Assembly: GCF_020711235.1 (NCBI RefSeq) | Contig: NZ_JAJFAV010000012.1 | Coordinates: forward strand, 124,001-188,000 | Reading direction: 5' to 3' | DNA from: Hymenobacter sp. 15J16-1T3B | GTDB taxonomy: Bacteria > Bacteroidota > Bacteroidia > Cytophagales > Hymenobacteraceae | DNA length: 64,000 nt | Part shown: positions 26,588 to 42,084 of the stretch, piece after piece | Layout: the number at the start of each line of letters is the position of its first letter | Position numbering within the stretch: the first letter of the stretch is position 1 | Translations under genes and position numbers: made by a program | The notes under the pieces: generated by a model | Told to the model about the DNA's origin: nothing | What the model saw: only the letters and a program-made list of their open reading frames with translations | The model's database searches: none

Positions 26588-26619
26588 TTGTTTCGGGCCG
26601 AATTGCCGTTGTATCTTTG
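26588..26619 (+). promoter_or_regulatory. Promoter of the SRP RNA gene (-33 TTG, -7 TATCTTTG)
   Basis: TTG at 26588-26590 and TATCTTTG at 26612-26619 are 21 bases apart. Transcription should start near 26624, exactly where the RNA's closing stem begins. Confidence 0.75.
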
Positions 26620-26624
26620 CACCG

Positions 26625-26718
26625 GCGAATCAGTACGACCAGCTCCCGCTGAACTCCCCCAGGACCGGAAGGTAGCAAGGGCAGGCGGTTGTAGCGGTGC
26701 GATACTGGTTCGCTTTTT
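26625..26718 (+). ncRNA. ffs: Signal recognition particle RNA, small bacterial type (4.5S)
   Basis: The central motif CCAGGACCGGAAGGTAGCAA (near 26659-26678) is the conserved SRP-binding hairpin tip and internal loop that holds Ffh. The ends form a stem: GCGAATCAGTA (26625-26635) pairs with TACTGGTTCGC (26703-26713), with one G-U pair, and a T-run (26714 on) follows as terminator. The RNA joins Ffh to target membrane proteins to the translocon. The length of about 90 bases is typical of the small, Alu-less type. It lies in the 382-base gap between a porin-like gene and fsa; the rest of that gap shows nothing else. Confidence 0.92.
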
Positions 26719-26870
26719 TTTTGCCCCGCCAGCAGCAGTTGGCCTCGCCGTCCGCCGCCTATCGGGCGCGTTTTCGATGCGGCTGCGGCCACAAAATCCA
26801 CGCAGTCCGTCGAATCCGTCGAATCCGTGGTTAGTTTTGGGCCAGCATTTTCTTTTTAAGCGTTTCCCCG

Positions 26871-40167: not shown

Positions 40168-40199
40168 TTGCAAGTACGGGCCCGCCGGGGCTACCTTTG
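40168..40199 (+). promoter_or_regulatory. Promoter of the SAM riboswitch transcript
   Basis: TTG (40168-40170) and TACCTTTG (40192-40199) are 21 bases apart. Transcription would start about 20 bases before the riboswitch. Confidence 0.75.
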
Positions 40200-40226
40200 C
40201 GGCATCAATTCTTTTGCTGAAGGATT

Positions 40227-40320
40227 GTTTTTATACAGAGGCGTGGAGAGACAGGCTCCGAGAAGCGCCGGCAACCCCGGGAAAATCCCGGACGGTGCCA
40301 AGTCCTGACCATATAAAAAC
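40227..40320 (+). promoter_or_regulatory. SAM riboswitch (S-box / SAM-I class)
   Basis: The closing stem P1 is perfect: GTTTTTATA (40227-40235) pairs with TATAAAAAC (40312-40320). Inside are the conserved class features: AGAGGCGTGGAGAGACAGGC, then CTCCGAGAAGCGCCGGCAACC with the invariant GGCAACC, a CCGGG-loop-CCCGG hairpin, GGTGCCAAGTCCTGACC and the return strand. It should bind S-adenosylmethionine and lower expression when methionine is plentiful. It is followed by a leader peptide and, 279 bases on, an amino acid permease. Together these occupy the 467-base gap 40133-40599. Confidence 0.9.
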
Positions 40321-40358
40321 AAGTTGCTGTGGGCTTTTTGCACCCCGTTTCTGCTTCG

Positions 40359-40424
40359 ATGGTTTCCCGCCTAGCCGCCGCTACCGGCCGCGCTGCCGCG
40401 GGCTGTTGTTGCTGTTGCCGCTAG
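40359..40424 (+). CDS. Polycysteine leader peptide between riboswitch and permease
   Basis: A 21-residue reading frame, MVSRLAAATGRAAAG followed by five Cys and Arg, then TAG. It starts 38 bases after the SAM riboswitch. Five consecutive Cys codons (TGT TGT TGC TGT TGC, 40404-40418) are very unlikely by chance. Bases 40371-40378 (CTAGCCGC) can pair with 40417-40424 (GCCGCTAG) at seven of eight positions, so ribosome stalling on the Cys codons would disrupt a hairpin. This suits cysteine-sensing attenuation (inference). A second run of four Cys codons occurs near 40488-40499 in another frame, without a clear start. Confidence 0.6.
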   Translation: MVSRLAAATGRAAAGCCCCCR

Positions 40425-40599
40425 CGCCGCGCGTTGCCTGAGCCGGCGCTGAAGCCGGCCGTATTCATTCGTTTCATTTTCTGCTGTTGCTGCCGCCCGT
40501 TGCGGGCGCGCCGCTGGTTTGGCGTCGCCCGTTCGGTGCGCCTAGCCGGCCGCAGGTCACATTTGCGCCGGCCGCTCTGGCCGGGGCTACCCTCGTTTC

Positions 40600-42084
40600 A
40601 TGCTCAAAAAATCCTTGGAGCTGCTGCGGCAAGAAGCCGCGGACAGCGGCTCGCACACGCTCAAGCGCAGCCTCGGCCCGCTCAATCTCATTGCCATCGG
40701 CGTCGGCGTCATCATCGGCGCGGGGCTGTTTTCGCTCACTGGCATTGCCGCCGCCAACCACACCGGCCCGGCCGTCACCCTGTCCTTTATCGTGGCCGCG
40801 GTGGGCTGCGCCTTCTCGGCCCTGTGCTACGCCGAGTTTGCCTCCATGGTGCCCGTGGCCGGCTCGGCCTACACCTACTCCTATGCCACCATGGGCGAGC
40901 TGTTTGCCTGGATTATCGGCTGGGACTTGGTGCTGGAATACTCCGTGGGCGCCGCCACGGTGGCCATCAGCTGGTCGCAATACCTGGTGAAATTCCTCTC
41001 GAAGTACGGCCTGCACCTGCCGCCGCAGCTGGTGATGTCGCCCTGGGAAACGGCCTCGCTGGCCGACGGAGGCGGCACGGTGCACGGCTGGCTGAACCTG
41101 CCGGCGGTGCTCGTGGTGCTGGCCATTACGGCCATCATCGTGCGCGGCACCCAGGGCTCGGCCTGGTTCAACGCCGTGGTGGTGGCCCTGAAGGTGTCGG
41201 TGGTACTGGTGTTCATCGCGCTGGGCTGGCAGTACATCAACCCGGCCAACTACCACCCCTACATCCCCGAAAACACCGGCACCTTCGGCGAATTTGGCTG
41301 GAGCGGCATTTTGCGCGGGGCCGGGGTGGTGTTCTTCGTGTTCATCGGCTTCGACATCGTGGCCACCATGGCGCAGGAGGCCAAAAACCCGCAGCGCAAC
41401 ATGCCCATCGGCATCATCGGCTCCCTGCTGGTGTGCACGGTCCTGTTTGTGGTGTTCGGCTACGTGATGACCGGGCTGGCCAACTTCACCGAGTTCAAGA
41501 ACAGCGCCGCGCCGGTAGCCATTGCCATCGAAAAAACGCCCTACGGCTGGCTGTCGACGGCCATCATCGGGGCTATTCTTATCGGCTACACGTCGGTGAT
41601 TCTGGTCGATTTGCTGGGCCAGAGCCGGGTATTCTTCTCCATGAGCCGAGACGGGCTGCTGCCGCGCGTCTTCTCGCAGGTGCACCCACGCTTCCAAACG
41701 CCGCACAAATCCAACCTGCTGCTGGGCGCCTTTATCAGCTTGTTCGCCGGGCTGGTGCCCATCAACGTGGTGGGCGAAATGTGCAGCATCGGCACGCTGC
41801 TGGCCTTCGTGATGGTGTGCGTGGGCGTGCTCATCATGCGCAAGCGGGAGCCCGACGCTCCGCGCGCGTTTCGCACGCCCTGGGTGCCGCTGGTGCCCAT
41901 TCTGGGCATCGTTACCTGCCTGGTAATGATGCTCAGCCTGCCCGGCGACACCTGGATTCGCCTGTTCGTGTGGCTGGCCATCGGCCTGGTGATTTACTTC
42001 GGCTACGGCAAAAAGCACAGCAAGCTGGGCCGGGGCGTGGCCGTGGCCCCGACGGTGGAGCCGGCGGGCAGCAAGGTAGCTTGA
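40600..42084 (+). CDS. APC-family amino acid permease, SAM-riboswitch controlled
   Basis: A 494-residue, about 12-helix inner membrane transporter. The N-terminal cytoplasmic part ends LKRSLGPLNLIAIGVGVIIGAGLF, the substrate-binding G-x-G helix of the CAT/YfnA branch of the APC superfamily. SALCYAEFASMVPVAGSAYTYSYATMGE and GFDIVATMAQEAKNPQRNMPIGI follow. The ATG at 40600 is the first sensible start. Because its leader carries a SAM riboswitch and a Cys-rich peptide, methionine, another sulfur amino acid or a related compound is the likely substrate; the family itself would otherwise suggest a broad cationic or neutral amino acid range. Confidence 0.9.
   Translation: MLKKSLELLRQEAADSGSHTLKRSLGPLNLIAIGVGVIIGAGLFSLTGIAAANHTGPAVTLSFIVAAVGCAFSALCYAEFASMVPVAGSAYTYSYATMGELFAWIIGWDLVLEYSVGAATVAISWSQYLVKFLSKYGLHLPPQLVMSPWETASLADGGGTVHGWLNLPAVLVVLAITAIIVRGTQGSAWFNAVVVALKVSVVLVFIALGWQYINPANYHPYIPENTGTFGEFGWSGILRGAGVVFFVFIGFDIVATMAQEAKNPQRNMPIGIIGSLLVCTVLFVVFGYVMTGLANFTEFKNSAAPVAIAIEKTPYGWLSTAIIGAILIGYTSVILVDLLGQSRVFFSMSRDGLLPRVFSQVHPRFQTPHKSNLLLGAFISLFAGLVPINVVGEMCSIGTLLAFVMVCVGVLIMRKREPDAPRAFRTPWVPLVPILGIVTCLVMMLSLPGDTWIRLFVWLAIGLVIYFGYGKKHSKLGRGVAVAPTVEPAGSKVA

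Follow-up and report, generated by a model that had tools for sequence, protein, structure and literature searches.

We analysed a 64,000 nt window of forward-strand DNA from Hymenobacter sp. 15J16-1T3B (contig NZ_JAJFAV010000012.1, positions 124,001 to 188,000), in which a predicted SAM-I (S-box) riboswitch is followed by a short reading frame with a run of cysteine codons at its end, here called the leader, and then by a gene for an amino acid permease. SAM-I riboswitches sense S-adenosylmethionine (SAM), a product of methionine. The features of this locus, numbered from the first base of the window, are as follows.

40168..40199, + strand: candidate Bacteroidota-type promoter, with TTG at 40168-40170 and TACCTTTG at 40192-40199, 21 nt between them, read from the sequence
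40227..40235, + strand: 5′ strand of the P1 helix, GTTTTTATA, perfect complement of 40312-40320
40228..40319, + strand: predicted SAM-I (S-box) riboswitch aptamer (RF00162, 76.5 bits, E = 3.4e-16)
40312..40320, + strand: 3′ strand of P1, TATAAAAAC, A-rich and just 5′ of the leader start, pairing with 40227-40235
40329..40424, + strand: leader peptide frame of 31 codons with a GTG start, encoding VGFLHPVSASMVSRLAAATGRAAAGCCCCCR, then a stop; the start is kept in 8 of 8 permease leaders of the genus
40404..40418, + strand: five Cys codons, TGT TGT TGC TGT TGC, read from the sequence
40425..40599, + strand: spacer of 175 nt from leader stop to permease start, the expected site of the expression platform
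40442..40459, + strand: G+C hairpin of six pairs, then CGTATTCATT (five T in eight bases), a weak terminator-like site from the terminator scan
40482..40493, + strand: second Cys run (four codons), past the stop of the first leader and in its frame, read from the sequence
40600..42084, + strand: APC-family amino acid permease of 494 aa (PF13520, E = 1.1e-57)

The riboswitch match exceeds the RF00162 gathering score of 44.4 bits, and its P1 helix is closed by nine perfect pairs. We propose that the 3′ strand of this helix, 40312-40320, is a translation-initiation region that would be hidden once P1 forms. The promoter resembles the Bacteroidota consensus and is a candidate of that type; its TACCTTTG element was also found upstream of the riboswitch at three other loci of the genus (L003, L006 and L012), and a sigma-70 scan, which does not model the Bacteroidota type, gave no sites. 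The best NCBIfam match of the permease was BcaP, under the cut-off of that model. A first-pass annotation made from the letters of the stretch had already pointed to the promoter, to an S-box RNA with a perfect 9-bp P1 and to an APC permease downstream, and all three hold.

That annotation had drawn the Cys-rich frame as 21 codons starting at ATG 40359. The end of the frame stands as described, with the five Cys codons followed by CGC (Arg) and a TAG stop at 40424; the start had to be moved. An in-frame GTG lies 9 nt past the Rfam match in all eight permease leaders of the genus, from eight genomes (position 40329 in the window), whereas ATG 40359 is present in the window alone (1 of 8) and was rejected, so that the leader is best drawn from 40329 to 40424. 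A run similar to the second run of the window was seen directly past the leader stop at locus L077, again with four Cys codons, and the two are perhaps remnants of a duplicated leader. At a locus with a SusC-type receptor gene (L197), a single riboswitch is followed by two complete Cys leaders in tandem, MQPQ...QACCCC at about 7-99 nt and MNHSLP...CTRMCCC at about 193-318 nt past the riboswitch end.

A genome-wide search found four SAM riboswitches in this Hymenobacter genome, located before the permease, cysH, metY and metH. Cys frames lie behind three of them, encoding VGFLHPVSASMVSRLAAATGRAAAGCCCCCR before the permease, VNFDFTPRAMMAGPAAPQLASYGFDNGCCCCMPMRRACC before cysH and MSHYPL...ALMCCCCCW before metY; no Cys frame follows the fourth, at metH. 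The poly-Cys pattern TGYTGYTGYTGYTRR, which is blind to runs before other codons, matched the same genome 49 times, most matches continuing with TGG. Among the 30 that were examined four reach a true stop codon; three of these frames lack a start, and the fourth is short (L312) and lies in a contig stretch without a listed riboswitch. Of the remaining 19 matches 7 end in a stop.

In the first-pass annotation, absence of the frame or the Cys run from relatives that keep the riboswitch was to refute the proposal; the counts below do not refute it. Searches at genus, family, order and class level yielded 199 riboswitch loci, at which we scored frames of 12-75 codons starting between -4 and +21 nt of the riboswitch end, counting Cys in the last 15 codons. 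All listed places were read for the genus and order searches (110 matches in the latter), all but one match below the cut-off for the class search, and the returned loci plus three for the family search; the phylum search added 30 loci (one already in the set) and 40 hand-picked places, mostly in genomes with at least two riboswitches, and because of this selective sampling family- and phylum-level fractions are not estimates. One locus of the 199 (L194) was too short for the table of P1 classes; locus L366, which was clipped, was dropped.

The sequence of the 3′ P1 strand divides most riboswitches into a TATAA and a GATAAG type. At least three Cys codons were found at 74 of 101 TATAA-type loci and at least four at 69 of 101, where dinucleotide shuffles expect 2.1 and 0.45, respectively; the 27 TATAA-type loci with fewer than three Cys were kept in these denominators. 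The corresponding counts are 2/79 and 0/79 for the GATAAG type, both of the former having scattered Cys before metH, and other P1 types have at least three Cys at 5 of 18 loci. The two metH loci (L020 and L186), which pass the three-Cys filter, were removed or zeroed by hand in most counts and are still included in the 2/79 and among the 81 loci that pass the filter. Without these chance hits, 79 loci remain that have the Cys frame at a fixed distance from the riboswitch; they come from 43 genomes representing 21 genera in 11 families. The observation is confirmed and is broader than first seen. Riboswitch and Cys leader are each known on their own. Additional metY leaders were found in the class search (L287 and L296) and, in family f61, among the phylum matches listed (L395 and L397); the remaining metY riboswitches read from the phylum matches listed, mostly from other classes, had no such leader, and their P1 was of the GATAA/GATGA type or other. 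On contig 17 of one genome (G008), two SAM riboswitches on opposite strands (575715-575821, minus, and 576135-576241, plus) face away from each other with about 310 nt between them.

The geometry of the leader is narrowly constrained. Of the 81 loci that pass the Cys filter, 76 have the leader start 7-12 nt past the Rfam match, and an SD-like (Shine-Dalgarno-like) core precedes only 3 of the 79 leaders. A further test left the frame open, pairing a start at +5 to +14 with a (TGY)4+ run located 30-230 nt downstream: at all 50 testable TATAA-type loci the two share a frame with no intervening stop, against an expectation of one third (p = 1.4e-24). Locus L189 also has the run, but its start, at -3, falls outside the interval. 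The leaders, 16-72 aa as detected, have their last Cys immediately before the stop in 54 of 79 cases and one codon away in 19, and the stop may be TAA (34), TAG (23) or TGA (22). Of the Cys codons near the stop 288 are TGT and 133 are TGC, and the first four Cys are spelled in ten ways; leaders of the genus favour TGT (TGT:TGC 106:46) and the genes downstream favour TGC (20:129). Leaving Cys aside, the last 15 codons of 62 nonredundant leaders encode Met at 63 of 605 residues and the codons before them at 16 of 1485, an approximately tenfold enrichment; 36 of these leaders have a Met near the run. Trp and Arg are likewise commoner near the run. The codons for these two residues are one mutation from a Cys codon and ATG is more than one away, so decay of the run does not account for the enrichment of Met. 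The N-terminal part of the leader looks free to vary while start, frame, run and stop are retained, which matches the expectation for a regulatory leader and not for a working small protein. At the level of sequence, its coding status is backed by the frame and the run and not by ordinary purifying selection.

The leader is also specific to certain genes. Gene classes were assigned by tblastn over 285 loci, with names backed by NCBIfam or Pfam for some representatives only; the tested pieces of metB-like, metX, NhaC-like and reductase genes reached no NCBIfam cut-off, and the labels hom, metZ, nifS, M14 and patatin are presumptive, given by resemblance to such sequences. Leaders precede the APC permease at 10 of 10 riboswitch loci, the ATP-grasp gene at 11 of 11, cysH at 11 of 14 and metY at 41 of 85, with a GAT(A/G)A-type P1 at 32 of the 44 leaderless metY loci. 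They were further found before SusC-type (TonB) receptors (5/8), metZ-like (1/4) and nifS-like (1/3) genes, and before one sulfite/nitrite reductase-like, one NhaC-like and one M14-like gene. No leader was found among the 285 loci before metH (0/92, the two chance hits zeroed by hand), metB-like genes (0/17), metX (0/15), hom (0/4), patatin-like genes (0/2) or unclassified genes (0/17). Most leader-bearing genes act where sulfur comes in, through sulfate reduction or the incorporation of sulfide, or else resemble transporters. Cystathionine gamma-synthases draw their sulfur from cysteine, so if the metB-like genes encode such enzymes a cysteine-shortage signal would not be expected there. At seven TATAA-type metY loci (L071, L079, L124, L143, L144, L149 and L161, in families f5, f11 and f19) an ATG was seen 7-10 nt past the riboswitch with no Cys run in its frame; in such frames the run may have been lost, or a different signal may be read.

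Within gene families, the leader goes with the riboswitch. An order-wide search with the CysH protein gave 30 loci, of which four have a Cys leader, all four being riboswitch loci; two more cysH riboswitch loci (L330 and L340) have weak Cys runs, and the other 24 have neither riboswitch nor leader, although ten of them match only distantly, at 31-37% identity, and could belong elsewhere in the family. The riboswitch core motif and the leader are both present at the permease of H. jeollabukensis (locus L023), Hymenobacter sp. YC55, H. ginkgonis, H. psychrotolerans and H. nitidus, and neither was found by a motif search (not a covariance search) of 520 nt at the permease of H. terricola and H. 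armeniacus. The ATP-grasp gene is RimK-like and uncharacterised, and the presence of a Cys leader at all 11 riboswitch loci preceding it (L024, L028, L029, L034, L042, L062, L133, L140, L150, L173 and L199) suggests that its product may take part in the metabolism of sulfur or thiols. Elsewhere in the window, a Bacteroidales small signal recognition particle RNA was identified at 26616-26719 on the plus strand (78.9 bits).

The leader thus exists as a recurrent element with a fixed position, frame and codon make-up, specific to certain genes and co-occurring with the riboswitch. We consider it probable, with a likelihood of roughly 0.7, that it forms part of a two-input sulfur regulator, in which the SAM riboswitch gates the Cys leader and the leader then sets expression of the gene. 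Judging from the geometry, at high SAM the P1 helix would include the A-rich stretch 5′ of the leader start and block translation of the leader; at low SAM the stretch would be released and the leader translated. The P1 3′ strand lies about 7-12 nt before the start and SD-like cores are rare, so P1 pairing would be the simplest way for SAM to block the leader, and leader translation itself is most likely what the riboswitch gates, given the closeness of the start to P1. The codons suggest that when Cys-tRNA, possibly also Met-tRNA, is short, ribosomes would stall in the Cys run by the stop. A stalled ribosome could sustain the downstream gene, most simply by preventing Rho-dependent premature termination or by refolding a stem past the stop, while a ribosome that finishes, or never starts, would leave the transcript to be cut short. 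The gene would be fully on only with SAM and cysteine both low. The distribution across genes suggests that sulfur-assimilation and transport genes read two sulfur signals in succession, and the serial arrangement put forward in the first-pass annotation gains strong comparative support from the 79 loci in 43 genomes, although its start codon and a hairpin that it drew between the ends of the peptide did not survive.

A number of observations weigh against this two-input regulator. If the leader were directly coupled to the gene by translation, shorter spacers than those seen would be expected: 175 nt in the window and 99-455 nt before metY, where 35 were measured. Across 12 close pairs of leaders, substitutions in non-Cys codons fall 58/58/72 on codon positions 1/2/3 (p = 0.35), as in non-coding DNA, seven of nine indels in the aligned frames have lengths not divisible by three, and of 13 Cys codons that changed just 3 did so synonymously. 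Twenty-seven of the 101 TATAA-type riboswitches have fewer than three Cys, including nine metY loci (families f5, f11, f15, f19 and f61). The first 90 nt past the stop, over 79 loci, have only a modest bias for C, with C/(C+G) at 0.583 compared with 0.539 behind leaderless riboswitches (p = 0.001), and the window spacer is nearly without it (0.521, with 0.513 in the permease). Finally, the 281 nt past the window riboswitch (40320-40600) show no excess of structure over shuffles (z = +1.04). The same result tells against the proposed pairing of the peptide ends (40371-40378 with 40417-40424), which has 7 of 8 pairs and involves bases that are not conserved in the eight permease leaders.

How the leader would act on the gene was considered from the spacer. 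Classical intrinsic attenuation, in which the position of the leader ribosome decides whether the spacer folds into an antiterminator or into a terminator with a U tail, might be expected from the enrichment of structure 20-80 nt past the stop (mean z -0.86, standard error 0.16) and from the G+C hairpin of the window with its five T in eight bases; the terminator scan found two sites compared with 0.9 in shuffles (standard deviation 0.9). Over the group, however, terminator-like sites were not enriched, occurring in 7 of 79 spacers against 13.1 expected and, in a fixed window, in 4 of 79 against 10.6; by eye, few of the hairpins listed past the stop carry a U tract, and RNAalifold found almost no consensus in eight permease leaders (-2.4 kcal/mol). 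We therefore rejected an intrinsic terminator as the general platform and regard this form of attenuation as quite unlikely. Consensus folds were likewise set aside. Within the genus, the metY, cysH and permease leader groups yielded extensive RNAalifold folds, the sequence being GC-rich, and a covariation score that was low or nil.

Over the 79 loci C/(C+G) is 0.648 in the leader, 0.609 in the spacer, 0.514 in the gene and 0.537 in the leaderless 5′ untranslated region, the spacer value being approximate because gene starts follow a longest-frame rule that is wrong at some loci (certainly L001 and L022); the leader exceeds its gene in 78 of 79 loci. This bias, together with the rho gene present in the genome, would suit Rho, although the spacer bias shrinks on fixed windows, as given above, and low G may signify no more than weak structure. 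For the two-input regulator we tentatively name Rho-type premature termination as a platform, at somewhat short of even odds. The mostly U-less hairpins would also be compatible with a ribosome-sensitive stem, and a platform of some other structure-based type is possible but doubtful.

Three further explanations bear on whether the leader and the riboswitch work as one device. The two sensors might act in parallel, the riboswitch on the gene alone (for instance by termination) and the leader independently, as a complete aptamer could use another platform; we find this unlikely in view of a start fixed 7-12 nt from the riboswitch end and of a P1 type, TATAA or GATAAG, that tracks the presence of the leader. 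It is also conceivable that the peptide is a functional small Cys-rich protein, with a metal or redox role, that is incidentally encoded on the same mRNA, since C-terminal Cys clusters could bind metal and the detected peptides are 16-72 aa long. Yet all but the Cys run diverges with no bias by codon position, none of five leaders tried had a Pfam match at E 0.1, and no leader was found at the 24 cysH-family genes without a riboswitch or, by motif search of 520 nt, before the H. terricola and H. armeniacus permeases, making such a protein very unlikely. Equally far-fetched, if not slightly more so, is a Cys run that serves as a nucleotide element, its UGY repeats pairing or binding, and not as codons: UGY repeats can pair nearby, the run pairs with bases just upstream in predicted folds of cysH leaders, and synonymous changes are few in close pairs, but the run is in frame at every testable locus, four Cys are coded in ten ways and any of the three stop codons may adjoin it.

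Beyond the two-input regulator itself, we lean slightly towards a more general form of the proposal: a composite device widespread in Bacteroidia, in which the direct output of the SAM riboswitch would be translation of a Cys/Met leader through an SD-free start region within P1, so that expression would follow an AND logic, requiring low SAM together with little charged Cys (and Met) tRNA. Such a device would be kept for sulfur-entry genes (sulfate reduction, direct sulfhydrylation, transporters) and not for metH, metX, metB-like genes or hom, so that one riboswitch class would be split into two platforms within one genome, the leader standing at three of the four SAM riboswitches here. If this is true, it would amount to a naturally occurring RNA logic gate with two inputs, both products of the same pathway, to a riboswitch with a peptide as its first output and to a case of riboswitch control over SD-free translation, and it would predict which genes count as sulfur entry in a given organism.

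A search of the open-access literature returned no description of a SAM riboswitch combined with a Cys leader. Polycysteine frames of mycobacteria are reportedly leaderless, as the title of Canestrari et al. (2020) has it; by sequence position the start described here instead lies behind a 92-nt aptamer. Like a Cys leader-peptide attenuator, the present element has a short frame with a codon run near its stop that is conserved in relatives, and unlike a classical trp-type attenuator it shows, by the group counts given above, no enrichment of intrinsic terminators behind the leader, the window itself having one weak candidate. In Actinobacteria, Cys leaders precede the cys operons of Mycobacterium and Propionibacterium and cbs of Bifidobacterium, where no conserved terminator was found and Rho was weakly proposed by the authors (PMC1262725). 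These share with our loci the short frame, the Cys run near the stop, the sulfur genes downstream and the lack of a conserved terminator; the accessible part of that paper mentions no riboswitch, whereas here there is a SAM aptamer, an enrichment of Met near the run and a host in Bacteroidota. The upstream open reading frame (uORF) uORFC-8-2, before cysS in Rhodobacterales, has two tandem Cys codons for which ribosome-mediated attenuation was likewise proposed (PMC8632094), but it differs in its intrinsic terminator and its gene, and the available excerpt describes no riboswitch. Leader-peptide attenuation before amino-acid operons has been noted in a flavobacterium and in Bacteroides, along with short frames in long 5′ untranslated regions (PMC9723704, PMC7366714). 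In Mycobacterium tuberculosis, metE and ppe2 have B12 riboswitches with uORFs, and riboswitch and uORF translation jointly set expression (PMC11260477), as proposed for the leader here; the ligand is another one, the portion of the paper available names no amino-acid codon run, and in ppe2 the stop overlaps the start of the gene, an arrangement not found at the spacers of the window (175 nt) and of metY (99-455 nt). For SAM-I riboswitches that directly sequester the ribosome-binding site (RBS), Barrick and Breaker placed the RBS in the 3′ side of P1 (PMC2258182). Those riboswitches and the present ones share a P1 that overlaps the translation-initiation region, the difference being that here the frame that would be gated is a leader peptide, mostly SD-less, with the gene further on.

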